From contig JAJVHV010000004.1 in assembly GCA_022072445.1 (NCBI GenBank), positions 1-64,000 of the forward strand: a stretch of 64,000 bases of DNA, read 5' to 3'. Below the pieces are notes generated by a model. The model made no database searches. It worked only from the letters and a program-made list of their open reading frames with translations, and had not been told where the DNA came from. This DNA is from Phycisphaerae bacterium. Its GTDB lineage: Bacteria; Planctomycetota; Phycisphaerae; UBA1845; Fen-1342. The translations under genes and the position numbers were made by a program. Below, in pieces: positions 30,073 to 43,630 of this stretch (position 1 is its first letter; each line of letters opens with the position of its first letter).

Positions 30073-31590
30073 ATGAGCGACGAATTGGCGCCGGCGCGCA
30101 CCTCGGGCGTATTGCTCCATCTGACATCCCTGCCGGGCGCGTGGGGCGGCGACGCCGGGCCGCAGGCGCACGCATTGGCGGCGCGGCTGGCGCGGGCGGG
30201 GCAATCGTGGTGGCAGATGCTGCCGATTTCGCCGCCGGGACCGGGCATGTCGCCGTACGCGTCGTCGTCGTCGTTTGCGGGCAGCCCGTGGCTGGTGAGC
30301 CTGGAGCTGCTGCGGCGCGAGGGCTGGCTGTCGCGCGATGAAGTGCCGGTGGAGGCGGCGCGTGGCTGGCGAATCGAGTTCAAGGCTGCGCAGCAGGCGC
30401 GGCGGGGCGCGCTGCGGCGGGCGTTTGAGCGCTGGCGCACCGCCGGCGGACAGGAGAGCGAAGCGTTCGGCGCGTTCTGCCGGCGGCACAGCGAGTGGCT
30501 CGACGATTTCGCGCTGTTCAGCGTGCTGCGCGCCGCACACGGCGGACGGCCGTGGAACACGTGGGACGCGCCGCTGCGGCGGCGCCGAGCCGCGGCGCTG
30601 CGGGCGGTGGTGCGGACGCGGGATGCGGCGCTGAGCTTCGTACGATTCGTTCAGTTCGTGTTTGACCAGCAGTGGACGGCGTTGCGCGCGCACTGCCGGC
30701 GACTGGGAGTCGGGCTGATCGGCGACGTGCCGATCTTCGTCGCACACGACAGCGCCGACGTGTGGGCCAACCCGTCGCTGTTTCGGCTGGATCGCGGCGG
30801 GCGGCCGAGCGTGGTCTCGGGGTGCCCGCCCGACAGCTTCAATCCGGACGGCCAGCATTGGGGACACCCGCACTATGCGTGGGGCGCGCACGAGCGCAGC
30901 GGATTCGAGTGGTGGGTGCGGCGCGTGCGGGCGGTGATGGAGCGCTTTGACCTGGTGCGGATCGACCACTTCATCGGTCTGCACCGTACGTGGCAGGTGC
31001 CGGGGCGGGCGAAGACGGCGCGGCGCGGGCGCTGGGGGCCGTCGCCGGGCGCAGCGTTGCTGAGCGCGCTGCGGCGCGGGCTGGGCGGGCTGCCGTTTAT
31101 CGCGGAGGACCTTGGGCTGCTGACGCGCGAGGCGGCGGCGCTGCGCGATCGATTCGGGCTGCCGGGCATGCGCGTGCTGCAATTCGGATTCGATGGCAGC
31201 GACGCAGGCCGCTATCACCTGCCGGAGCGCTTCTCGCCGCGCTGCGTGGCCTACACCGGCACGCATGACAATCCGACCACGGTCGGCTGGTGGCACGAGC
31301 TGCGGCGCGGCGGCGACGTCGAGCGGCGACGGTTTGTGCTGCGCTACCTGGGTGTGGGCGGCAAGGAGCTGCATTGGGGCATGATCCGCGCGCTCTGCGC
31401 GTCGTGTGCCGGGATGGTGATCCTGCCGATGCAGGATATGCTCGGTCTCGACGATCGGCACCGCATGAACACGCCGGGAAAGGCGCGCGGCAACTGGGCC
31501 TGGCAGATGTCAGCCGCTGCGCGGCTGCAGCCGGCACTGGACCGGCTGGGACGGATGACGGCGGACTATGGGCGGCTCGGGCGCGGTTGA
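30073..31590 (+). CDS. malQ: 4-alpha-glucanotransferase (amylomaltase)
   Basis: 505 residues from the ATG at 30073; a TTG at 30052 is rejected because a -10-like TAATAT lies between them. This GH77 enzyme transfers alpha-1,4-glucan chains between maltodextrins. Landmarks are GVLLHLTSLPG, the VSGCPPDSFNPDGQHWGHP segment, the nucleophile Asp in RIDHFIG, the acid/base Glu in IAEDLG, and GTHDNPT. The C-terminal MNTPGKARGNWAWQM is typical. Its 3' end overlaps the convergent hisA/I/E gene by 25 bases. No glycogen synthase or phosphorylase lies nearby. Confidence 0.95.
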   Translation: MSDELAPARTSGVLLHLTSLPGAWGGDAGPQAHALAARLARAGQSWWQMLPISPPGPGMSPYASSSSFAGSPWLVSLELLRREGWLSRDEVPVEAARGWRIEFKAAQQARRGALRRAFERWRTAGGQESEAFGAFCRRHSEWLDDFALFSVLRAAHGGRPWNTWDAPLRRRRAAALRAVVRTRDAALSFVRFVQFVFDQQWTALRAHCRRLGVGLIGDVPIFVAHDSADVWANPSLFRLDRGGRPSVVSGCPPDSFNPDGQHWGHPHYAWGAHERSGFEWWVRRVRAVMERFDLVRIDHFIGLHRTWQVPGRAKTARRGRWGPSPGAALLSALRRGLGGLPFIAEDLGLLTREAAALRDRFGLPGMRVLQFGFDGSDAGRYHLPERFSPRCVAYTGTHDNPTTVGWWHELRRGGDVERRRFVLRYLGVGGKELHWGMIRALCASCAGMVILPMQDMLGLDDRHRMNTPGKARGNWAWQMSAAARLQPALDRLGRMTADYGRLGRG

Positions 31591-32891
31591 TCGGTCGCGG
31601 CGGGCTTGGCATCGCCCGGGCGGCGCGTCACGTGCAGCGTGCGGCGGTCGAGCTCGCGCTCGACTTCGGCGAGCCTCACGCCGGCGCGGGTGCAGGCCGT
31701 GAGGGTGAAGAAGAGCAGGTCGGCAGCCTCGGCGGCGACGGCGCCGCGTGCCGCGTTTTCAGCATCGAGCACCGCGCCGCAGCCATCGAGCGCCTGGATC
31801 AACTCGCCGGTTTCTTCGAGCAGCTTGGAATTCAGCAGCGCCGGGTCGTCGAACAGGCGCCGGGCGTAGGAGTCGGGCGGTGCTGACGTGCGGCGCGCGG
31901 CCAGCGTGCGGGCCAGCGCGGGCAGGCCGCGCGCGGCGCCCCAGCAAGTCCATGTGTCGCGGTGGCAGAAGCCGGCGCCATGCTGGCGGACGGTGAAGCG
32001 GAGCGCGTCGCGATCGCAATCGACGTCGACGCGCAGCAGTTCCTGCGTCGCACCCGACGACTCGCCCTTCAGCCAGCGGCCGCGCGTGCGCGAGTGATAA
32101 ACGCCGCGGTGCGACTCGACCGCCTCGCGCAGCGTTTCGAGGCTGGACCAGGCCAGACCCAGCGCCACGCCGTGCTCGTCGACGACGACGGTCGGCCAGA
32201 GACCGTCGGCGCGGTCCGACCGCAGCGGAGCGGCGAACGCGGCTGTGAGATCGAGCCGGCCGGTGTAGAGCGCCATGCCGACTTGGGCGTCGACGCCGAG
32301 CGCGTCGAGTGCGGCGACGTCGTCGGGCGTCGTGACGCCGCCGGCGTAGGTCAGTTCGGCGTCGCCGGCGGCGTCGCGCAGCGTGCGGATGCGCGGCAGG
32401 TCGATGCCGGCCATGCGGCCTTCGCGTTCGACAAACGTCACCAGAAAGCCGGAGACGTACGGCCGCAGCTCGTGCATGCAGTCGATGACAGTGCGGCCGG
32501 TCGGCGTCTGCCAGCCATGCACGACGACCTGGCCGTCGCGCGCGTCGAGCGCGGCGATGACGCGCTCGCGCGGCAGATCGCGCAGCACGTCGGGGCGGGC
32601 AGCGGTGCCCAATATCACGCGCGCCGCGCCGGCGTCGAGCCAGCGGATGGCAGCGTCGGCGTCGCGGATTCCGCCGCCGACGCGGCAGCGCGCCTTGCTC
32701 AGCAGATCGCGGATGGTGTCGGCGTTGCTGCCGCGGCCTAACGCCGCGTCGAGATCGACGACGGCGACTTCACCCAGCGGCGCGAAACGCGCCGCGATCG
32801 TGCGCGGGTCTCCGGCGTCGAGCGCCGGCTCGCGACCGCCGACGAGCTGCACGGCGTTTCCGTTCATCAGATCGATCGAAGCTATCAGCAT
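31566..32891 (-). CDS. hisA-hisI-hisE: Trifunctional HisA-HisI-HisE fusion
   Basis: 441 residues carrying three consecutive histidine-pathway steps. HisA (ProFAR isomerase) is about residues 1-222, a (beta/alpha)8 barrel with Asp7, Asp116, Thr152 and the phosphate loops VGGGIRD and YAGGV. HisI (PR-AMP cyclohydrolase) is about 230-318 with the RGVYHSRTRGRWLKGESSG motif and metal residues in VDVDCDRDAL, FCHRDTWTCW. HisE (PR-ATP pyrophosphatase) is about 322-420, with LLNSKLLEETGELIQAL and the EAADLLFFTLTAC helix. The stop lies in malQ's 3' end (25-base overlap). It follows hisF by 3 bases and ends the operon. HisIE fusions are common; fusion of HisA in front is unusual. Confidence 0.93.
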   Translation of the reverse strand: MLIASIDLMNGNAVQLVGGREPALDAGDPRTIAARFAPLGEVAVVDLDAALGRGSNADTIRDLLSKARCRVGGGIRDADAAIRWLDAGAARVILGTAARPDVLRDLPRERVIAALDARDGQVVVHGWQTPTGRTVIDCMHELRPYVSGFLVTFVEREGRMAGIDLPRIRTLRDAAGDAELTYAGGVTTPDDVAALDALGVDAQVGMALYTGRLDLTAAFAAPLRSDRADGLWPTVVVDEHGVALGLAWSSLETLREAVESHRGVYHSRTRGRWLKGESSGATQELLRVDVDCDRDALRFTVRQHGAGFCHRDTWTCWGAARGLPALARTLAARRTSAPPDSYARRLFDDPALLNSKLLEETGELIQALDGCGAVLDAENAARGAVAAEAADLLFFTLTACTRAGVRLAEVERELDRRTLHVTRRPGDAKPAATDQPRPSRP

Positions 32892-32894
32892 GGA

Positions 32895-33653
32895 TCACCC
32901 GCGTACGTGCTCGCCCAGCTCGCGCAGGCGGCGCTTGACGTCGGCCACGGTGGTGTGGCCGTCGTGAAAAATCGAAGCGGCCAGCACCGCGTCAGCGCCG
33001 GCCGAGAGCGCCTCGTGCATGTGCTCGGCCGTCGCGGCGCCGCCTGAGGCGATGATCGGCACGGAGACGGCGGCGGCAACGACGCGGATCAGCGGCAGAT
33101 CGTAGCCGCTGCGCGTGCCGTCGCGGTCCCAGCTCGTCAGCAGGATTTCGCCCGCGCCGGCACGCTCGGCCGAATGGCACCATGCGACTACGTCGCGTCC
33201 GGTCCGCTCCTGCCCGGCACGCACGGCGACTTCCCAGCCCTCGCCGCCGGCCCGCTTGACCGCGTCCACCGCCAGGACGGTGCATTGGCAGCCGTATCGG
33301 CCGGCCAGCTCCGACAGCAGCGCTGCACGCTCCACCGCGGCCGTGTTCACGCTGACCTTGTCGGCGCCCGCCTCGAGAAATGAAGTGGCATCTTCCAGCC
33401 GGCGAACGCCACCGCCGACTGTCAGCGGGATCGACAGCCGCGCTCGGACTCGCCGGACTGCGTCGAGCTGCGTGTCGCGCTGCTCGCGCGTCGCCGAAAC
33501 GTCGAGCATGACGATTTCGTCGGCCCCCTGCTGCTCATAGGCGGCGGCGAGTTCCACCGGGTCGCCCGCATCGCGCAGATTCTGAAACCGAACGCCCTTC
33601 ACGACGCGTCCGTCGCGGAAATCCAGACACGGAATGATGCGAACGGCAAGCAT
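32895..33653 (-). CDS. hisF: Imidazole glycerol phosphate synthase cyclase subunit
   Basis: 252 residues, a (beta/alpha)8 barrel. Catalytic Asp11 (PCLD) and Asp130 (LAVDAV) are present, with phosphate loops VGGGVRR and SGGAAT and the LLTSWDRDGT segment. It uses ammonia made by HisH to convert PRFAR to imidazole glycerol phosphate and AICAR. The gene lies 3 bases after hisH, and hisA/I/E follows at 3 bases. Confidence 0.97.
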   Translation of the reverse strand: MLAVRIIPCLDFRDGRVVKGVRFQNLRDAGDPVELAAAYEQQGADEIVMLDVSATREQRDTQLDAVRRVRARLSIPLTVGGGVRRLEDATSFLEAGADKVSVNTAAVERAALLSELAGRYGCQCTVLAVDAVKRAGGEGWEVAVRAGQERTGRDVVAWCHSAERAGAGEILLTSWDRDGTRSGYDLPLIRVVAAAVSVPIIASGGAATAEHMHEALSAGADAVLAASIFHDGHTTVADVKRRLRELGEHVRG

Positions 33654-33656
33654 CGA

Positions 33657-34259
33657 TCAACCCTCAGCGCCGAGCCAGCGGCGCAGCAGCGCGACGCCCC
33701 ACGCGCCCGACAGCTCCGGGTGAAACTGACACGCCAGCACTCCGCCGCGCTGCAGCGCCGCGACGAACCGGCTGCCGTAGTCGGCAGAGGCGGCGTGCCA
33801 GCCGGTCGGAGGTTCGGCGATGGCGTAGGAGTTCGCGAAATAGGCGTAGTCGGCGTGGAACGCATCAAAAACTGGCTCGGGCAGGACGCGGTTCCAGCCG
33901 ATCTGCGGAACGCGCACGGTGTCCGGCAGGCGCCTCGCGCGTGCGTCGAACAGCGCCAAGCCGCTGACGCCGGGGCTCTCGTCGCTGCCGGCGGCGAGTA
34001 ATTGCATGCCCAGGCAGATGGCCAGCGTCGGCCGCGCGTCACGCACGCGCTGCCGCAGGGCGTCGACGAGATCCGCCGCGTGCAACTGCTCCATCGCGGC
34101 GCCGAACGCGCCGACGCCGGGAAGGACAACATGCTGTGCCGCGGCGACATCAGCGGCGCGCTGTGTGACTTCGGCGCGCGCCCCCGCGCGGCGCAATCCG
34201 GCCAGCACGGAGGCCAGATTCGCGGTGCCGGTGCGTACGACCATGACGGCGTCGCGCAC
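33657..34259 (-). CDS. hisH: Imidazole glycerol phosphate synthase glutaminase subunit
   Basis: 200 residues from a GTG at 34259, one base after the hisB stop; an ATG at 34244 is an alternative and would match the usual N-terminus better. The class I glutaminase triad is Cys82 (AICLGMQLL), His180 and Glu182 (CQFHPELSG). Oxyanion region PGVGAFG and the ADYAYFANSY segment are normal. The usual N-terminal DYGMGN is RTGTAN here, so the interface to HisF may differ slightly. It supplies ammonia to HisF. Confidence 0.95.
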   Translation of the reverse strand: MRDAVMVVRTGTANLASVLAGLRRAGARAEVTQRAADVAAAQHVVLPGVGAFGAAMEQLHAADLVDALRQRVRDARPTLAICLGMQLLAAGSDESPGVSGLALFDARARRLPDTVRVPQIGWNRVLPEPVFDAFHADYAYFANSYAIAEPPTGWHAASADYGSRFVAALQRGGVLACQFHPELSGAWGVALLRRWLGAEG

Positions 34260-34260
34260 G

Positions 34261-34848
34261 TCAGAGCACTCCCTTCGTGCTGGGCACGTCGTCGGAGCCG
34301 TCGCGTGCCACGGCGCGGCGCAGCGCCAGGGACGTCGCCTTGAACGCCGCCTCGGCCTTGTGATGGTCGTTTTCGCCGCGCAGCACGTCGACGTGCAGCG
34401 TCAGGCGTGCGGCGCTGGCCAACGAGCGCAGCACGTGCGCGACGTTCTCGCAGGCCAGCGCACCAAGCGCGTCGCGCCGCAAGTCGAGCCGCACGTCGGC
34501 AAACGGTCGTCCGGAGAGATCGACGACGGCCCGCGCCAGCGCCTCGTCCAGCGGCGCGAACGCGTCGCCGAATCGCGACACGCCGCGGCGATCGCCGAGC
34601 GCCTGGTCCAGCGCGGCGCCCAATGCGAGCGCGCAATCTTCGGCGGTGTGGTGCTCGTCGACGTGCAGGTCGCCGATGCAGGTGAGCGTCAGATCGAATC
34701 GCGCGTGGCGTGCCAGCGCGGTCAGCAGGTGGTCGAGGAATCCGACGCCGGTGCGGATTTCGGCGGCCCCGGCGCCGTCGATGTTCAGACGCAGCGTGAC
34801 GTCGGTTTCGGCGGTCTTGCGCTGCACACTGGCGGTTCGAGGGGTCAT
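34261..34848 (-). CDS. hisB: Imidazoleglycerol-phosphate dehydratase
   Basis: 195 residues, the single-function form without a phosphatase domain, so histidinol-phosphatase must be encoded elsewhere. Mn-binding repeats are HVDEHHTAED (His66, His67) and RGENDHHKAEAAFKA; GVGFLDHLL is also typical. It removes water from imidazole glycerol phosphate to give imidazole acetol phosphate. The ATG overlaps the hisC stop by four bases (ATGA). Confidence 0.96.
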   Translation of the reverse strand: MTPRTASVQRKTAETDVTLRLNIDGAGAAEIRTGVGFLDHLLTALARHARFDLTLTCIGDLHVDEHHTAEDCALALGAALDQALGDRRGVSRFGDAFAPLDEALARAVVDLSGRPFADVRLDLRRDALGALACENVAHVLRSLASAARLTLHVDVLRGENDHHKAEAAFKATSLALRRAVARDGSDDVPSTKGVL

Positions 34849-35951
34849 GAGTGTGATGCTCCTGTGGGTCTCACTGCCGGCTCCAGCGCGGCCAGCAGCC
34901 GGTCAAACGCGCCTGCGTCGCCGGGACAGGTGATGCGCAACGTGTCGGTCAGGCCGGGGCGATCGGGAAATCGGCGGACGGCAATGCCGCCGCGGGCCAG
35001 GCGCTGGTGCACGCCGGCGGCGTCGGCGAAGCGCGACAGGACGAAGTTCGCTTGCGAGGGCAGCGGCTCAGCCCCAAGCCCGAGTAGATGCTGTCGCATT
35101 TGCTCGCGCTCGACGCGGACGCGATGCACAAACGCGTCGACGGCGGCGGCGCCCTGCTCGACCGCGGCGGCCGCGATCGCCAGCGCCGGGCGCGCCACGG
35201 AATACGGACTGCCGGCGACGCGCAGCCAGCCGATGATATCGGCCGGTCCGACGGCATATCCGACGCGCAGTCCGGCCAGACCCCACGCCTTTGACAGTGT
35301 GCGTACCGTGATGGCATTTGGCAGGCGCAGCGCGACCGGCGTCAGATCGACGTCGGCGAACTCGGTGTAGGCCAGGTCGACCATCAGCAGCGCGTGCGGC
35401 GCCGCGGCCGACAGGCGCCGCAGATCCGCTTCGCTCGCAATCGCGCCGGTAGGATTATTGGGCGAGACGACGGCGATCGCCGCGGTGCGCGGCGAAATCG
35501 CGGCGAGCACGGCATCGATCGGAAACGGGCCGCCCGGCCAGTCGACGCTGACGACGTCGGCGCCGGCCAGCCGCGCGTAGCGCGGGAACATCTCGAACGA
35601 CGGCACGGGCAGCAGCAGCTCGCGGCACGGGCCAAGCACGGCCCGCGCGGCGCGGTCGAGCGCTTCGTCGCCGCCCGCGGTGACCAGCACGTTCTCCGCG
35701 GCAACTCCCAGCCGCCGGGCGAGCAGTGCTTCGAGCGCCGCCGCGTCGGGATAGCGCCGCAGGACCTCCGGACCCGCAGCGTGCAGCACGTCGATCAGCG
35801 CCATGGATGGCACGGCGCCTTCGTTGCCGTCGAGAAAGAGATCGAGCGGCGCGGCGACGCGCGGCACACGATACGGCCTCTCGCCGGCGACCGCCGGATT
35901 GGGACGGATGGCGTGGCGAGCGAGCGAGACGTGAGGTGCATTTCGGGTCAT
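34845..35951 (-). CDS. hisC: Histidinol-phosphate aminotransferase
   Basis: 368 residues, PLP-dependent fold-type I. The Schiff-base Lys is Lys221 in TLSKAWGLAGLRVGY; the SPNNPTGA loop, DLAYTEF (PLP ring Asp) and the C-terminal RITCPG Arg that binds substrate phosphate are present. It moves the amino group from glutamate to imidazole acetol phosphate. Position: 15 bases after hisG and overlapping hisB by four bases. Similar sequences can serve aromatic amino acids, but the operon settles the role. Confidence 0.95.
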   Translation of the reverse strand: MTRNAPHVSLARHAIRPNPAVAGERPYRVPRVAAPLDLFLDGNEGAVPSMALIDVLHAAGPEVLRRYPDAAALEALLARRLGVAAENVLVTAGGDEALDRAARAVLGPCRELLLPVPSFEMFPRYARLAGADVVSVDWPGGPFPIDAVLAAISPRTAAIAVVSPNNPTGAIASEADLRRLSAAAPHALLMVDLAYTEFADVDLTPVALRLPNAITVRTLSKAWGLAGLRVGYAVGPADIIGWLRVAGSPYSVARPALAIAAAAVEQGAAAVDAFVHRVRVEREQMRQHLLGLGAEPLPSQANFVLSRFADAAGVHQRLARGGIAVRRFPDRPGLTDTLRITCPGDAGAFDRLLAALEPAVRPTGASHS

Positions 35952-35966
35952 GGGTTCATGCTCGGC

Positions 35967-36842
35967 TCAGGGGACGATCTGCGACGGTTGCGTGACGACC
36001 AGGTCGGTGGCGCCGCGCGCCCGCAGCGCCGGGATCAGCACCGGCAGATCGTCGCGCGGCACGGCCGCCTTGACGGCGTAACCCGCGTCGCCGTGCAGCG
36101 GGGCGATGGTCGGCTCGCGCATGCACGGGAGCGCCGCGACGACCGCCTCCAGATTCGCGGCCGAGACGTTGACCTCGAGCATGACGCGGCGACGGGCTTC
36201 GAGCACCGAATTCAACAGCAGCACCAGCGCGTCGATCCGGGCGCGGCGCGGCGGATCGTCGAGCGCCGCGGGATGCGCATAGAGCCGCGTCGAGGAGGCC
36301 ATCAGCACGTCGATGATCGTCATGCCGTTGGCCGCCAGCGTGGCGCCGGTCGCCGTATTATCGACGATCAGGTCGGCGTCTTCAGGCGGGAACACCTCGG
36401 TCGCGCCGTAGGAGCGGACGCAGGTCGCGTCGAGGCCGCGGCGGGCGATCCAGTCGCGCGTCAGGCGCTCATACTCGGACGCGATCAGCAGCCGCCTGCG
36501 GGGCAGCGCGCCGTCGTGCAGCAGTCCGACCGGGGCGGCCGCGACGAGCCGGACCGGATCGAGCCGTGTGTCGAGCAGCTCGACGAGGCGTGCGTCCAGC
36601 TCGGCGACCCAGTCGGCGCCGGCGAAGCCCACGTCGCGCGAGCCGATTTCGAGCATCTCGACGATGTTCTGCGGCTTGAGAATCTTGACCGTGCAGTCGG
36701 GCAGCGAGATGGTCGGCCGATAACTGCGGCTGCCGGCGCGCAGGCGGATGCCGGCGTCGGCCAGCAGCGCGAGCACTTCGTCGTGCATGCGGCCCTTCGG
36801 CAAGGCCAGCCGCAGCGCGGTAGATGAGGTGTCGTCCGTCAT
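35967..36842 (-). CDS. hisG: ATP phosphoribosyltransferase, long form
   Basis: 291 residues, the long HisG type that needs no HisZ. The catalytic part includes ALPKGRMHDEV, ILKPQNIVEMLEIGSRDVGF and the PRPP-binding segment DLIVDNTATGATL. The C-terminal 75 residues form an ACT-like domain for feedback by histidine. It performs the first committed step of the pathway. The ribosome site AGGAG is 5-6 bases from the ATG. It is the first enzyme gene after the leader and attenuator. Confidence 0.96.
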   Translation of the reverse strand: MTDDTSSTALRLALPKGRMHDEVLALLADAGIRLRAGSRSYRPTISLPDCTVKILKPQNIVEMLEIGSRDVGFAGADWVAELDARLVELLDTRLDPVRLVAAAPVGLLHDGALPRRRLLIASEYERLTRDWIARRGLDATCVRSYGATEVFPPEDADLIVDNTATGATLAANGMTIIDVLMASSTRLYAHPAALDDPPRRARIDALVLLLNSVLEARRRVMLEVNVSAANLEAVVAALPCMREPTIAPLHGDAGYAVKAAVPRDDLPVLIPALRARGATDLVVTQPSQIVP

Positions 36843-36881
36843 GTCTGCTCCTGTCGCAGACGCGGGCGCGGCGGGCGGCGC

Positions 36882-36913
36882 AAAAAAGCGACGCCGACCA
36901 GCGGCCGGCGTCG
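36882..36913 (-). terminator. his attenuator terminator
   Basis: On the minus strand, an 8-bp stem (36913-36906 with 36896-36889, CGACGCCG/CGGCGTCG) and a 9-base loop are followed by six T residues (36887-36882), an intrinsic terminator 40 bases before hisG. The 5' arm region CGCCGGCCG (36910-36902) can instead pair with CGGTCGGCG (36963-36955) at the end of the leader ORF, with one G-U pair, giving an antiterminator. Confidence 0.85.
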
Positions 36914-36944
36914 ATGGTGTTTTCGAGAACTGTCGCTGCCGCGA

Positions 36945-37019
36945 CTAGACCATCCGCCGACCGCGCTCGTGAGCGTGATGATGATGCGGATGGTGCCCGT
37001 TGCTCAGCAACACGAACAT
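36945..37019 (-). CDS. hisL: His leader peptide
   Basis: 24 residues: MFVLLSNGHHPHHHHAHE followed by RGRRMV and TAG. Seven of nine consecutive codons (residues 9-17) are histidine, the classic signature of a leader peptide whose translation senses charged tRNA-His. An upstream in-frame ATG at 37028 lies inside the -10 box and is not transcribed, so 37019 is the start. Stalling at residues 9-17 would free the antiterminator segment just downstream (36963-36955) and let transcription go on into hisG. No Shine-Dalgarno precedes the ATG. Confidence 0.9.
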   Translation of the reverse strand: MFVLLSNGHHPHHHHAHERGRRMV

Positions 37020-37026
37020 GAGCGGC

Positions 37027-37055
37027 ATTATACGAATTCGTACCAAGGCGATCAA
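37027..37055 (-). promoter_or_regulatory. his operon promoter
   Basis: TTGATC (37055-37050), exactly 17 bases of spacer, and a perfect TATAAT (37032-37027). Only seven bases separate TATAAT from the ATG of the leader peptide, so transcription should start at or right next to the A of that ATG, making the leader message leaderless. Confidence 0.85.
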
Positions 37056-37116
37056 GTGCTGCCCGTTGCGCTTGGAGTGGGGCAGGCATCGTGTCTGTCG
37101 CCTCTGGCACCACAAC

Positions 37117-37135
37117 AGCGGGCAGGATGCCCGCT
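37117..37135. repeat. Short inverted repeat after the macroglobulin gene
   Basis: Perfect 8-bp stem AGCGGGCA / TGCCCGCT with a 3-base loop, 16 bases beyond the stop of the minus-strand macroglobulin gene. It may stop transcripts, although the T-run is short. It lies in the 308-base gap that otherwise holds the his leader region. Confidence 0.55.
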
Positions 37136-37150
37136 CCGCACAGAGAGCAC

Positions 37151-40100
37151 TCAATCGCGGATTCCCAGCCGCATCTCGTCGCTGATCGCCCGCACCTCGG
37201 GCGCGTACATCGCGAAGCCCGTCGTCGGCAGCGCGTGAAACGTGCCGGGCGTTTCGGCCCGCAGGCGGTAGCGCAGCACGTGCTGGCCCTGTTCGAGCAG
37301 CCCGATAAAGAACACCACGCGTTCGTCGCGCAGCTCCAGATTCGCGCACAATCCGCCCGCCCAGCGCCCGCCGCTGCGCAGCTCGACCGGTTCGCATCCG
37401 GCCGGTTTGGGATCCTCGAATGCCAGGAAGTCGTAGATATTCCCGGACGTGATGTTCAGCACGACTTCGATCTGCTCGCCGGACGCGACCGCGTCGCCGG
37501 TCTTCAGCGGCACGCGCTGCCAGACGACGCGCTGCTCGCGCCGGCCGGATGCCGTCGGAGGCTCGGTCTGGCCGGCGGGCGGCGTGGCGAGCGCGCCGGC
37601 GGCGGGAATCACGACGTCCTCGACCTGCGGAATCAACCGGAAATACTCACGCCGGATCGCGATTTCGTTGCCGGCGGCAGCGATGTCCTCCTCGCGCGTG
37701 AAGTAGGACAGATAACACGCGTAATAGAGCGAACCGCGGCCGTCCTTGGAGATCGTCACGCGGTGCCGGCCGGGCGGAATGTGCAGCCCGTGCAGCTCGA
37801 TGCGGTTGTCGAGCGGAAACAGTTCGTCGTGAATCTGGAGCGTCTTCAGCTCGCGGCCGTCGAGCAGGATCGAAAGCGTGTAGTGCGGCGACGATTCGCC
37901 GCTGGCCTGCATGTAGTCGGCGATGGCGGCGATGGCCTGGGCGGTGTCGCGCGTGCTGCGCCAGTAGTACCCATGCCGGCGGTTGGCGAGCAGCCATTTG
38001 ACCAGGCGCGGCGTCAGCTCGCTGTGCGGCTCGATCGCGGCCAGCGCCTTGATCGCCCAGGCGTTGGTCTCGATGTCGCTGTTCCACCAGTACCACCAGC
38101 CCTCGGACACCGTCCGCACCCAGGCGGTCTCGTTCGTGTCGTCGCGCTCGACGAACTGGAGCAGATTGCGCAGCGTGCGCGCGGCGCGCTGCGCGTCGCC
38201 GGCGTGGTGATGCGTCAGGGCCAGCAGCGCCCGGCCGTAGTTCGTCAGTTTCCCGCGCTGCCCATCGAGGCGATCAAGCCACTTGCGGGTCTCATCGCTG
38301 GTCAGCCGCTTCTCGAGCGCGAGGATGTAGGCCATGTAGGCCTGCGTTACGAGGTCGCCCAGCTTCTCCTGCTTATCGGGCGGCTCCTGAAGCTCGGCGA
38401 TCACGAGTTGTTCGAGGAAGTCGATGGCCCGCTCGAATGCGCCGCCATCGACCGACACGCCGGCCGCCTTGGCCGCGCTCAGCCCCTGCAGCACGTAAGC
38501 GGTCTGGAACGGCGACGACTCGTCGTCGCGCCACCAGCCCCAGCCGCCGTCGTTGTGCTGCATGGCGTAAAGCCGCTGGAGGCCGGCGTCGACCATGCGG
38601 TCGAGTTCCTTCGTGTTGAAGACTGGCGAGTCGGACCAGGCCCAGCGCGCGCCCGCCGCCTCGGCGCTTTGCTGCTTGCGGCGCTGCGCGATGGTCTCGA
38701 GGTCGATCTTCATGCGCTGCAACGTGTCGCGCACCAGCACGCTCGGATAGAAGCGGCTCATGGTCTGCTCGACGCAGCCATAGGGATAGCCCGCCAGATA
38801 GGGCAGCGCGTCGAGCAGCGTTTCGGCCAGCGTGGGCGACGCCGTGATGACCAGGTGGGTCTTCTCCGCGTCGATCTCCTGCGGCAGGTCGAGCGTCAGC
38901 TCACGCTGCCCGGACTGCTCCGGCCGCAGCGAGCCGCTTTGCGCGATGGTCTTGTCGATGCCGTGCACCAGCACCGGGAAGCTCATGCGTGCGCCGTCGC
39001 TCTCTTCATCGGTCAGCGCCTTGACCGTGATCCGCGCCAGGCCGGGCTTGAGAACTCGAACGGGCCAGTCGAAGCGGTATTCGCCGCCCGCGGCAACCTG
39101 CGCCTCAAGAGTCAGGCGCCGTTCGCCCGTTTTCGGATCAACGCTGCCGGCGGCCCGGCTGTCGAGCGCGGCGAAAAGCTCGGCGGGCAGGCTGAGTTCG
39201 GCCGTGACGCGTTTTTCGTCGGAGAGATCGTTGTGCACGTTGGCGGAGAGCACGACCTCGTCGCGCTCGACGAAGAAGCGCGGCGACTGAAGCCGCACAA
39301 TGAACTGCTTGGTCGTGCGGGCCTCGCTGGTTGCCTTGCCGACGTGCGTCTGCGGTGTGATGGCGTGCGCGCGGACGTGCCAGGTGGTGAGCGACTGCGG
39401 GAACGTCACGTCCACTTCGGCGCGGCCGTTTTTGAGTGTGACGGCGGGTGCCCAGAGGGCCGTGTCGGCGAAGTTGGCGCGAATTTCGGGATCGACGATC
39501 GCGGCAGCGTCTGGCTGGCCGGCTTGGTTCAATGCCTCGCCGCCCATCAGCCCCAGGCGCGATTCGGCCGCTGGCCGGGCGAAGGAGAGGCTGTCGGCGA
39601 TGCCATTGGCGCTGTAGTCGAGGCCACGTAAAGCACCGCCCCCGCGACCGGCGGGGCCGAGTTCTCCTTCGAACAGATTGCCGGCCAGCTTCTGCTTTTC
39701 GTCGCCGCGGACGACGCCTGTGAGTGAAAGCGACCATTGACCCTGCCAGCCAGGGACCAATCCGTTGACGCCAACGAGCGTTTCGGGGCGTGTCAGGACG
39801 CCGAGGGACTGGAAGGCGTGGTCGGTGGAAGTATCGACCGTGGGCGCGTTCTGGCGGCGCTGTCCGTAGTAGAACGTCCGCGGGTCGGGGCCGAATTCGC
39901 CCTGGATGTAATGCAGGGCTTTGTCGTAGGCGGCGAGCACGACTTCGCCCTCGACGGGGCGCCCGCCGGCGTCGGCGGCTTCGACCACGACGTGGCCCAC
40001 GTCACCCGGGCGGTACTCGGATTTGTCGGTGGTGACATGCACATCGAGCAGGCGGTCGGCCGGCGGCACGAACACTTCGCGCAGTTGCGACTGCACGCGG

Positions 40101-43100
40101 CCGCTGCGGACGAGCGTCGCCTCGACGAAGAAATTCGGCACGTGCCGCGGCTCGACCGGAACGTCGACCACGGTAGACTTTCCGGTGAGCTCAATGAACC
40201 GGTAGTTCCGCAGAATGCCGTCGCGGGCGTCATCGCTGAAGAGCAGCCGGGCCTGAGCCTCGGCGACGTTGATCAGCAGGTGCGCCGTCTCGCCGACCGC
40301 GTAGGTGCGCTTGTCGGTGATGATCTCCAGGTCGTTGAATCGATGGGCGCGGCCGTCCGAGCCAGGGCCCATCACCCACACGACGGCGTTGCCCAGAATC
40401 TCCGCTCCGGCCGGGTCCTTCGTGGCGAACACGATGCGATAGTGGCCCTCGCGCGGCATCTCATAGCGAAACGACAGGCGGCCGTCGGCGTCGGTCGCGG
40501 CCGGCCAACGCGCCACTTCCACTTCGCTTGCAGCGTCGTTCCGCGGACCGCCGTACTGGATCTGAACGACGCGTACTTCGCCCTGGGCGGCGACGGGCGT
40601 GTCGTCGGCGGTGAGCGTGCGGACCTCGAAGAAAGCCTCGCGTGCCGGGCGGTACCAGCCGGCGTCGGCCTCGACAAAGGCGTAGAACGACTGCCGCGTG
40701 ACGATCAGGTGGCCACGGCCTTCGATTGTCCGGCGGCTGTCGTCGCGCACTTCGGCTTCGATCGTGTAGCGGTGATCGTCGTCGGGCTGGGCGGCGAGTG
40801 CGGGTGCGGTGTCGATTTGAATTTCAAAGGCGCCATCCTCGCCGAGTGTCGCCTCGCCCTGCACGACGAGATCTCGCAATGCGGCGCGGCGTGTGGCGTC
40901 GGGATCAAAGTCGCCGGGGGCGGCGGCGTAACCGCCGTTATAGGGATACCCCCACCACCATGGGCCGCAGCAGAATCGCCCCCAGCGGCCCCACCACGGC
41001 AGCCAGGGATAGGAGTACCAGCAGCGGCCGTAGCCGCGGCCGTAGAGCCAGTCGTACGCGGCGGCGCCCTGATAGACGTGTTGATACTCCTCGCGGTAGA
41101 CGCGGTAGCGCAGCGTGCCGTGCTTGACAGCGCCGCCGAAGTAATAGCGGGCTTCGACCCGGGCCTTGATCTTCTCGCCGAGGCGCGCCAGCTCGCGGGC
41201 GGGAGTGACAGTGACCTCGAATTCGGGCTTCTTGTATTCCTCGACGCGGAAGAGGCCGCCGTCGGCGTAGCGGCCGTCGGGCGCGCAATTGTCCAGGCGG
41301 ATCTGATAGACGCCGAGCGGCGGTTCTTCGGCGAGCTGGAACGCGCCGGTCGCGCCGCCCAGCGCGTCAGTCTTGAGCGTCAGCTCCCGGACCTGATTAT
41401 TGCGCGGATCGAAGATTTTGACGTTGATTTCACTTCCAGGCGGACCGGCAACGAGGGCACCGTCATGCCGGCGGCGCTCCCAGATGCGGAAGTTTACGGT
41501 GTGTCCGGGGCGATAGACGGGCCGATCGGTCAGGACGTAGAAGCGCGACATCCGCTCCTGCGCCGCGAAGGGATCGTGGTCTCTCCAGTTGTTGAAGAAC
41601 GAGAACGCCATGCGCCCGCCGGCGGCGCTGGCCATGGCGTCGATCTGCGAGTTGCCGCGCGGGTGGCTGCGTTTGGCGATGACGACGCCTTCGGCGTCGG
41701 TCTGGACGATTTCGCGGGTGAAGCCGGACTGTGATTTGCCCTTGTCGTCGTAGTCGTGCCAGTGCTCGAAGACGGTGACGTTCTGATTACCGAGCGGCTG
41801 GCCGGTGCGGGCGTCGGCCAGGTAGATCAGTCCCTGCCCGACGAGGTTCTTGCGAACGATCGCGATGTCGGTCAGCAGCACGAGGACGCGGGCCTGCGGC
41901 CCGTCCGGGGCGACGGTGACTTCGATGACGTACGCGCCCGGCTCGGTCAGCGGGGCGTCGGTTGCGCCGCTGCCGGCGCGCAGCCCTTCGGGCCGGTCGA
42001 CGCGCTGCGTCCAGCGGGCCACCTCCGCGCCGAGGTATTTCTTCCAGCGCTCGTCCTGGTGAAACAGGCTGGCCGTCTGCCAGCGGTAGCGCCAGTACTG
42101 CTCGCCCCTGGCTTCCATCGAGTCGGCGACGTACTTGTAAAGGTCGAATTTCCGGGCGACGAACTCCACCTGGTCGAGGTTGCGGAACGTGAACTCGACT
42201 TTCGGCGGTGCGCCCGGCAGGTGGACCGTGCCCGGATTGAGCTGAATCCCCGCGGCGTGCACATGACTCGCTTGCGTGTGAGCGGCTCCGACGCGCTCAT
42301 GTTTGGGGTATTGCTGCTCAAGCCGCTCATATTCACGCAGAGCCTCGGGGAACTGTTGCCGCGTCTGAAAGTACAGACCCAGGGCGTATTGCGCTTCGCC
42401 GCCCAGCCCGCACTGCGGGTATTTCTCCTGCAGGAGGCGCAACAATGCGACGGGGTTTTCGGCGGCGGGCAGCTTCACGACGCGCAGCTTTCCGCCCACG
42501 TAGGTGAGCGCCTCGTCCTCGGCCAACTCCCAGACGCGCTTGGTCTCGCGGCGCGTGTCCTGGCCAGGCGGCGCCGTCATGGTGTAGGGCCGGCCGCGGT
42601 CAGGATCGACGCCGTAGAGCGCCCGGCCGATCATCGCCCGGCGAAAGAGCGCTTCGCCGGCGTGAGCCTTGGCCGTCGAAGTGTCCAGCCGCTCGATTTC
42701 CTCGAGCACGAAACGGATTTTCTGACCGTCGCCCAGTTCAGCGGAGTACTGCGGCGGCGCGGGCGCGAAGCAGGGCTGTCCATCGGCTCCGACGGGCAAC
42801 CCCTGCGGTGGTTGCGAGTAGTCCCAGCCGTACCAGCCGCGCCACCCGCGGCCTAGACCGCCCCAGCGCGCCTCTTCGTAATCCGCGTCGTCGACGGCGG
42901 CCGAGTCATCCTCGTCGTCCCAGGCGTTCGTCCACCACCAGTAGCAATAGAACTGCGTTCCAAAGTCCTGCGCGCTCTGTCGCGCCAGAATCGTGGCCAG
43001 GTCGAAGTCGACGCCGATGCGCTCCGACTCGATCCGCGTCCGCGCTGGTGTCGTGTCATCGCTGCGCAGGTCGAGCGCCGCGGCCAGCTTGCTCAGCAGC

Positions 43101-43630
43101 TCGCGCGAGCGCTCGTAGCGGCGGATCGCCTCGGCGCGGTCTTTGCGCCACGTCGAGACGAATGTGCCCTGTGTCCACTGCCCGCGCAGATAGGTGCTGC
43201 CGCGCTTGGTCCCTTCGTGCGGGACGGCAACGTAGATGCCGGCGGCGAAGCGTTCGGCGACGGCCTGCTCGAACGTGCCGGGATTGAGCCGGGCGTATTC
43301 GGAGGCACGCTCCAGGGCGTTGTTCCAGTCTTGCAGCCTCAGGGCGCACGTGACCCCGCCTTCGACTGCCTGGCGGAAATCGGCCGAGGCGTGATCGGTC
43401 GCCAGCGAGCGCGCCGCGTCGTACACCTGCCGCGCCTCGGCCCAGTTCTGCTCCTTGGCCAGTTTTTCGGCCTTTTGAAGCGCGTCCGATACCGTTGCGG
43501 GCGCGTCCTGGTGTCGGGCGGCTGCGAGCAGCAGGCACAGCGCGGCCGCGGGGCAAAGTCCGAACGCGATGGTGCGCTGCCAGCGCTGCGCCGACGTGTG
43601 GCGGTGGTGCGGCCGGGCGATTGGCGACAT
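37151..43630 (-). CDS. Bacterial alpha-2-macroglobulin family protein
   Basis: 2159 residues with a signal peptide (IAFGLCPAAALCLLLAAA). Residues about 45-450 are helical and TPR-like. Macroglobulin domains follow, including FYVLTDRPVYRPGHTVNFRI, an MG2-type strand that precedes a bait-like region. The thioester motif is Cys1619-Val-Glu-Gln1622 (YPYGCVEQTMSRF), followed by the all-helical thioester domain to about 1950 and a receptor-like C-terminal domain. Such proteins trap proteases attacking the envelope. Two aromatic, Gly-rich insertions stand out, near residues 220-270 and 860-905. The usual partner gene, a PBP1c-like transglycosylase, is not adjacent. The ribosome site GGAGAG precedes the ATG. 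Confidence 0.92.
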   Translation of the reverse strand: MSPIARPHHRHTSAQRWQRTIAFGLCPAAALCLLLAAARHQDAPATVSDALQKAEKLAKEQNWAEARQVYDAARSLATDHASADFRQAVEGGVTCALRLQDWNNALERASEYARLNPGTFEQAVAERFAAGIYVAVPHEGTKRGSTYLRGQWTQGTFVSTWRKDRAEAIRRYERSRELLSKLAAALDLRSDDTTPARTRIESERIGVDFDLATILARQSAQDFGTQFYCYWWWTNAWDDEDDSAAVDDADYEEARWGGLGRGWRGWYGWDYSQPPQGLPVGADGQPCFAPAPPQYSAELGDGQKIRFVLEEIERLDTSTAKAHAGEALFRRAMIGRALYGVDPDRGRPYTMTAPPGQDTRRETKRVWELAEDEALTYVGGKLRVVKLPAAENPVALLRLLQEKYPQCGLGGEAQYALGLYFQTRQQFPEALREYERLEQQYPKHERVGAAHTQASHVHAAGIQLNPGTVHLPGAPPKVEFTFRNLDQVEFVARKFDLYKYVADSMEARGEQYWRYRWQTASLFHQDERWKKYLGAEVARWTQRVDRPEGLRAGSGATDAPLTEPGAYVIEVTVAPDGPQARVLVLLTDIAIVRKNLVGQGLIYLADARTGQPLGNQNVTVFEHWHDYDDKGKSQSGFTREIVQTDAEGVVIAKRSHPRGNSQIDAMASAAGGRMAFSFFNNWRDHDPFAAQERMSRFYVLTDRPVYRPGHTVNFRIWERRRHDGALVAGPPGSEINVKIFDPRNNQVRELTLKTDALGGATGAFQLAEEPPLGVYQIRLDNCAPDGRYADGGLFRVEEYKKPEFEVTVTPARELARLGEKIKARVEARYYFGGAVKHGTLRYRVYREEYQHVYQGAAAYDWLYGRGYGRCWYSYPWLPWWGRWGRFCCGPWWWGYPYNGGYAAAPGDFDPDATRRAALRDLVVQGEATLGEDGAFEIQIDTAPALAAQPDDDHRYTIEAEVRDDSRRTIEGRGHLIVTRQSFYAFVEADAGWYRPAREAFFEVRTLTADDTPVAAQGEVRVVQIQYGGPRNDAASEVEVARWPAATDADGRLSFRYEMPREGHYRIVFATKDPAGAEILGNAVVWVMGPGSDGRAHRFNDLEIITDKRTYAVGETAHLLINVAEAQARLLFSDDARDGILRNYRFIELTGKSTVVDVPVEPRHVPNFFVEATLVRSGRVQSQLREVFVPPADRLLDVHVTTDKSEYRPGDVGHVVVEAADAGGRPVEGEVVLAAYDKALHYIQGEFGPDPRTFYYGQRRQNAPTVDTSTDHAFQSLGVLTRPETLVGVNGLVPGWQGQWSLSLTGVVRGDEKQKLAGNLFEGELGPAGRGGGALRGLDYSANGIADSLSFARPAAESRLGLMGGEALNQAGQPDAAAIVDPEIRANFADTALWAPAVTLKNGRAEVDVTFPQSLTTWHVRAHAITPQTHVGKATSEARTTKQFIVRLQSPRFFVERDEVVLSANVHNDLSDEKRVTAELSLPAELFAALDSRAAGSVDPKTGERRLTLEAQVAAGGEYRFDWPVRVLKPGLARITVKALTDEESDGARMSFPVLVHGIDKTIAQSGSLRPEQSGQRELTLDLPQEIDAEKTHLVITASPTLAETLLDALPYLAGYPYGCVEQTMSRFYPSVLVRDTLQRMKIDLETIAQRRKQQSAEAAGARWAWSDSPVFNTKELDRMVDAGLQRLYAMQHNDGGWGWWRDDESSPFQTAYVLQGLSAAKAAGVSVDGGAFERAIDFLEQLVIAELQEPPDKQEKLGDLVTQAYMAYILALEKRLTSDETRKWLDRLDGQRGKLTNYGRALLALTHHHAGDAQRAARTLRNLLQFVERDDTNETAWVRTVSEGWWYWWNSDIETNAWAIKALAAIEPHSELTPRLVKWLLANRRHGYYWRSTRDTAQAIAAIADYMQASGESSPHYTLSILLDGRELKTLQIHDELFPLDNRIELHGLHIPPGRHRVTISKDGRGSLYYACYLSYFTREEDIAAAGNEIAIRREYFRLIPQVEDVVIPAAGALATPPAGQTEPPTASGRREQRVVWQRVPLKTGDAVASGEQIEVVLNITSGNIYDFLAFEDPKPAGCEPVELRSGGRWAGGLCANLELRDERVVFFIGLLEQGQHVLRYRLRAETPGTFHALPTTGFAMYAPEVRAISDEMRLGIRD

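Follow-up and report, generated by a model that had tools for sequence, protein, structure and literature searches.

The window, a stretch of 64,000 nucleotides from a Phycisphaerae bacterium, carries a histidine biosynthesis operon in which the gene order after a short leader is hisG-hisC-hisB-hisH-hisF-hisA/IE, all on the minus strand. The first gene (35967..36842, ATG at 36842) encodes the long form of ATP phosphoribosyltransferase, with TIGR00070 and TIGR03455 over cut-off and the domains PF01634 and PF08029. It is followed on the same strand by hisC (34845..35951), for which TIGR01141 is the best family though below its cut-off, and by hisB (34261..34848; NF002111), hisH (33657..34259; TIGR01855) and hisF (32895..33653; TIGR00735), each over cut-off. 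The last gene in the run is a 441-aa ORF (31566..32891, minus strand) with PF00977, PF01502 and PF01503 in that order, an apparent HisA-HisI(PRA-CH)-HisE(PRA-PH) fusion closing the operon. On the other side of the leader, an ORF of 2159 aa on the same strand (37151-43630) encodes an alpha-2-macroglobulin-like protein with MG2, A2M, BRD, TED and bMG10 domains, and ends about 130 nt before the leader ATG.

The leader itself is compact. On the minus strand, a -35 box TTGATC (37055-37050) is separated by a 17-nt spacer from a -10 box TATAAT (37032-37027), whose end lies 7 nt from the ATG of a 24-codon ORF, MFVLLSNGHHPHHHHAHERGRRMV (37019-36945), which has no Shine-Dalgarno site and ends in a TAG at 36947-36945. 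The regulatory codons HHPHHHHAH (36969..36995, minus strand) are residues 9-17 of this peptide, seven His in nine codons. This run is the window's only stretch with at least 5 His in nine codons in any frame; simulated windows lead us to expect 0.05 such stretches, and 0 at a threshold of 6 or more, and a chance origin of the run is excluded. Three segments around the end of the ORF can pair in alternative ways. The 5' part of the His run constitutes region 1 and pairs with the end of the ORF, so that the His codons themselves take part in the structure. Region 2 (GCGGUCGGCGGAUGGU, 36949..36964, minus strand) has region 1 as its partner, or region 3 once region 1 is covered. Region 3 (ACCAUCGACGCCGGCC, 36903..36918, minus strand) is both the 3' side of the antiterminator and the 5' arm of an intrinsic terminator, a GC-rich stem-loop (3:4; 36913-36889, minus strand) followed on the same strand by a run of six T (36887-36882), 39 nt before the hisG ATG. 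The folding z-score of the leader is -2.4.

An earlier note on this DNA had described a complete His attenuator here, and the promoter, the 24-codon ORF with seven His in nine, the TAG and the terminator with its T6 are indeed all on the minus strand at the positions it gave. Two of its details need amending: the terminator stem, which it took to be 8 bp, has 11 bp and a 3-nt loop, and the pairing of the ORF end with the terminator's 5' arm is real but longer than it proposed, the 2:3 helix CGGUCGGCG/CGCCGGCCG being extended by GAUGGU/ACCAUC. The geometry downstream bears on a different way of working, in which alternative hairpins hide or expose the start region of hisG and thereby control its translation rather than its transcription. 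Some attenuators do act on translation, according to a recent survey (PMC9413887). However, a T run follows the 3:4 stem, whose end is still 46 nt short of the hisG start, and the hisG Shine-Dalgarno AGGAG (36852-36848, minus strand), a site that the leader does not have, lies outside that stem, which makes translational control very improbable.

The transcriptional switch was examined by folding with a masked ribosome in 59 leaders, the RNA being extended up to the terminator loop and thus still lacking arm 4. The median count of predicted 2:3 pairs is 0.9 with no ribosome, 17.6 with a ribosome on the His codons and 0 with a ribosome at the stop codon. When the spacer is shuffled, the mean in the same ribosome-mask folding is 8.5 pairs, versus 16.6 for unshuffled leaders. 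For the complete leader of the window, the predicted probability of the terminator is 1.0 both without a ribosome and with one at the stop codon, but falls to 0.0 when the ribosome sits on the first His and to 0.23 when it sits on the middle one, a prediction that agrees with the idea, already put forward in the earlier note, that stalling on His codons selects the antiterminator. In the window leader, the 2:3 helix (16.3 pairs) is already present ahead of arm 4, whether or not a ribosome is bound, and therefore the decision falls when arm 4 appears; without a ribosome, the terminator wins once arm 4 exists. At full equilibrium with a stalled ribosome, the terminator still wins in many leaders (median probability 0.99), so the switch in those relatives must be kinetic, i.e., co-transcriptional, as it is in the classical attenuation model. 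Because the terminator usually wins at equilibrium, we rejected equilibrium terminator probability alone as a test.

Comparison across leaders points in the same direction. Regions 1, 2 and 3 give mutually exclusive pairs in nearly all of them, and the partners within one leader pair better than partners borrowed from other leaders, a result equalled in 0 of 500 permutations for 2:3 and 5 of 500 for 1:2. The terminator core pairs are nearly invariant across relatives, and covariation is found mainly in an outer terminator pair, as changes from G-C to A-U. The leader combines three features of a ribosome-mediated transcription attenuator: a leader ORF with His codons, an intrinsic terminator and a predicted antiterminator that excludes it.

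The position of the promoter is the other distinctive feature of this leader. It is the only sigma-70-like site between 32500 and 37400, a region of 4.9 kb in which no other was found and 0.1 were expected. Of the 57 distinct leaders compared, 43 have a TTGAC whose first base lies 34-39 nt upstream of the leader start (0.26 in shuffles), and TANNNT starts in relatives cluster 12-16 nt before the leader ATG. The start codon of 20 leaders found with a covariance model had been picked partly by its distance to the promoter, and a blind rerun agrees: with the nearest in-frame ATG chosen blindly, TTGAC is in the expected place in 42 of 55 leaders. Shine-Dalgarno-like pairing energy is rarer than in shuffled sequences (9% of leaders versus 20% of shuffles). 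In established promoter geometry, a -35 box at such a distance means that transcription begins on the AUG or only a few bases away from it. Given this geometry and the -35 distance, the transcript of the window leader probably starts at or within a few nucleotides of its ATG. By sequence position, it thus resembles the leaderless attenuators of the Sinorhizobium meliloti trpL type, with a promoter that abuts the AUG and no Shine-Dalgarno site. A His attenuator of the classical sort, with a conventional 5' UTR, in which the promoter would be further upstream and the leader ORF translated by another route, has a precedent in Escherichia coli hisL, which works with a 5' UTR and has a -35-like TTGCTT about 70 nt before its ATG, and a minority of relatives do look Shine-Dalgarno-led. 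We nevertheless consider it unlikely in the window, as a perfect -10 and a near-consensus -35 recur at a fixed distance from the start in most leaders, the Shine-Dalgarno signal is below the level of shuffles and the region offers a single sigma-70-like site. Leaderlessness nonetheless appears to be common rather than obligatory among these leaders: the exact TTGAC is absent from the expected place in 14 of 57, and two acidobacterial leaders (L158 and L159) have a longer UTR with GAGG and are those that look Shine-Dalgarno-led.

The same arrangement is conserved in close relatives. Our sample of the same family comprised 27 genomes, seven of which have a TIGR00070 hisG, and the layout of His run, terminator and hisG is the same in all seven (L001-L007). 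The possibility raised in the earlier note, that relatives with the same hisG-hisC operon lack the His run and the terminator, is thus not borne out. The other 20 genomes, several of them at least 93% complete, have no match to TIGR00070 hisG, for which histidine auxotrophy or another form of the gene is a possible explanation. A wider scan based on a HisG alignment yielded 80 named loci from many phyla, with HisG 62-73% identical, and any short ORF with at least 4 His in nine codons within 450 nt upstream of hisG was scored as a leader. Of 77 related hisG genes, 35 have such an ORF, while the controls gave 0.5% of dinucleotide shuffles, 0/77 on the antisense strand and 0/76 downstream; some related hisG genes are without any recognisable leader. 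The same ORF scan found a His-rich leader upstream of none of 30 genes for the other, canonical planctomycete type of HisG. Two loci (L011 and L056), on contigs of equal length, duplicate L003 and L006 and were left out of the tree described below, but are still within the 35 of 77. The covariance model matched four of the loci that were searched again, of which L037 was known from the ORF scan and L040, L055 and L015 are new.

These results leave little room for the view that the terminator works as a constitutive filter, or simply closes the alpha-2-macroglobulin-like gene, and that the His run arose by coincidence or belongs to a metal-binding mini-protein. That gene does end on the same strand, just upstream of the leader. 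However, a His run and switchable pairings precede hisG in many phyla and in varied upstream contexts, they do not occur before hisG of the other type, and among leaders it is the nucleotide pairings that are conserved and not the peptide outside the His run; we find this explanation hardly credible. The recurrent element is instead best read as an attenuator.

The phylogenetic range of the element is wide. By record title, the phyla with a leader are Planctomycetota, Gemmatimonadota, Acidobacteriota, Myxococcota ("Deltaproteobacteria"), Pseudomonadota (L052, L060 and L074), Candidatus Sumerlaeota (L014) and Actinomycetota (L069), although nearly all carriers are metagenome-assembled genomes and phylum claims that depend on a single contig need caution. 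Two loci from the same sample series, L037 (binned as Coriobacteriia) and L039 (Gemmatimonadetes), have an identical HisG and leader; one of the two is probably misbinned, and L037 was left out of the actinobacterial evidence. The upstream regions of planctomycete hisG genes, where the earlier note had proposed to look, do hold further leaders: the covariance model, R1, which has one strong match in the source genome, picked out 23 carriers among the 392 Planctomycetota genomes sampled, with E-values near 1e-5 or below; they belong to 12 families, and the match lies before hisG each time. A 24th genome at this level (G147) was discarded because what the model matches there is a gene-end terminator, and weak matches in G147, G137 and G365 are likewise gene-end terminators and not leaders; matches outside a his context were left out of the counts. 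In other phyla, matches reaching 1e-5 were found in 25 of 150 Gemmatimonadota, 6 of 247 Acidobacteriota and 2 of 349 Pseudomonadota, counts that are lower bounds owing to strict filters; the matches were inspected by eye in part, and some members helped build R1. In the second of the two Pseudomonadota matches (L171), no His-rich ORF was seen. Wherever they were inspected, strong matches elsewhere lie before hisG. One gemmatimonad (L172) has the element twice in a single his cluster, before hisG and before hisB (G732:C13:264335-264466 and 261452-261589 (-)), both copies with a promoter close to the leader ATG.

What the element follows is a type of HisG and an operon layout, not the organism, and it is not confined to Planctomycetota. 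On the HisG tree, the leader label changes 9 times, versus 33 times in shuffles. A quick tree speaks against a clade of the seven HisG proteins of the same family (p-AU 0.002), an indication that operon and leader have moved between lineages. Leaders occur where hisC comes next after hisG, and none was found in 21 related loci with hisB or hisH directly after hisG; the element apparently travels with the hisG-first operon. Taken as a whole, the reading in the earlier note is supported but was incomplete, as it missed the leaderless start, the 1:2 pairing, the spread beyond Planctomycetota and the tie to one HisG type. The anatomy of the leader, its conservation, the exclusive pairings and the position of the promoter are established by computation.

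We propose, with a probability of roughly 0.88, that the his operon is governed here by a ribosome-mediated transcription attenuator, the leader peptide of which would be translated from a leaderless or nearly leaderless transcript; we infer where transcription starts, that the ORF is translated and that the system responds to histidine. RNA polymerase would begin the transcript on the leader AUG or no more than a few bases away, and the 5' end would be loaded with a ribosome without the help of a Shine-Dalgarno site. When charged His-tRNA is scarce, the ribosome would stall on the His run and cover region 1, leaving region 2 free for region 3; the terminator would then be blocked and hisG-hisC-hisB-hisH-hisF-hisA/IE would be transcribed. 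When His-tRNA is plentiful, the ribosome would reach the stop codon and cover region 2, the 3:4 stem would form and transcription would end before hisG. With no translation, 1:2 and 3:4 would both form and the operon would be off. A more ambitious proposal, to which we give slightly less than even odds, is that a single uncatalogued leaderless His attenuator, with CGCCGG/CCGGCG as the almost unchanging core of its terminator, has reached no fewer than six phyla along with hisG-first, hisG-hisC operons, and that the leaderless start is itself functional. The ribosome would load as the 5' end leaves RNA polymerase, coupling transcription and translation without a Shine-Dalgarno site, and the switch would depend on this mode of initiation as well as on His-tRNA.

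His attenuation is a textbook case of coupled transcription and translation, and its principle here is classical; what sets the element apart is its apparently leaderless start and its spread over phyla. If our reading is correct, the same attenuation logic operates in phyla without such described regulation, mostly on mRNAs whose first nucleotides are the start codon. This would open two questions to testing: how ribosomes manage to load on leaderless RNA in time to act on a terminator some 100 nt further on, and whether transcription is closely coupled to translation in planctomycetes. The covariance model can be used to annotate his leaders that are at present unannotated in metagenomic genomes.

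The literature available to us places documented His attenuation in gammaproteobacteria and a few Firmicutes. A survey from 2010 describes leader-peptide systems as then known only from Proteobacteria and Actinobacteria, to which it added Firmicutes (PMC2965389), and one from 2022 records RNA attenuators for his genes in Proteobacteria and in three lineages of Firmicutes (PMC9413887). Our literature search, which most subscription journals fall outside, found no published His attenuator in Planctomycetota, in keeping with the suggestion in the earlier note that this is a new occurrence, and no published combination of His codons, leaderless start, intrinsic terminator and several phyla. Rfam gave nothing relevant at gathering or relaxed thresholds; no T-box model matched the window, and the interval 36700-37200 gave none even when E was allowed to reach 5. 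In the same genome, a leaderless Trp attenuator was sought and rejected, the pattern having 7 matches versus 4 for the reversed pattern, near background, and no Trp-rich ORF lies within 420 nt upstream of either trpE-family match.

The closest functional parallel is hisL of E. coli and Salmonella (RF00514), which shares the His-rich leader ORF before hisG, the mutually exclusive antiterminator and intrinsic terminator, and the expected response to His-tRNA charging. The element is however no member of RF00514 as modelled, because the His_leader model stays below threshold in the window and in 19 related loci yet scores 131.6 bits on the E. coli positive control. Conversely, what our covariance model recovers of E. 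coli hisL is the ORF alone, at 20 bits. The terminator core and the operon order also differ, and the promoter here abuts the AUG, unlike in hisL with its 5' UTR. The Firmicutes leaders, which we liken by description and not by sequence, share a predicted His-codon ORF, terminator and antiterminator before his genes or hisZ/hisS, but belong to another phylum and have no leaderless start reported in the available text of the surveys (PMC9413887, PMC2965389). For the leaderless start, the nearest counterparts regulate other amino acids. Mycobacterial polycysteine uORFs are leaderless short ORFs in which a run of codons for one amino acid tunes a downstream operon (PMC4633059; PMC9031893, citing Canestrari 2020), but the amino acid is Cys and it is the translation of downstream genes that is controlled (PMC9031893), whereas here there is an intrinsic terminator. 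In S. meliloti trpL, again likened by description and not by sequence, the leader AUG is the 5' end of the transcript of an attenuator that governs a biosynthetic operon (PMC7298713), as we propose here, although its codons are Trp and not His, its operon is trpE(G) and its hosts are alphaproteobacteria.
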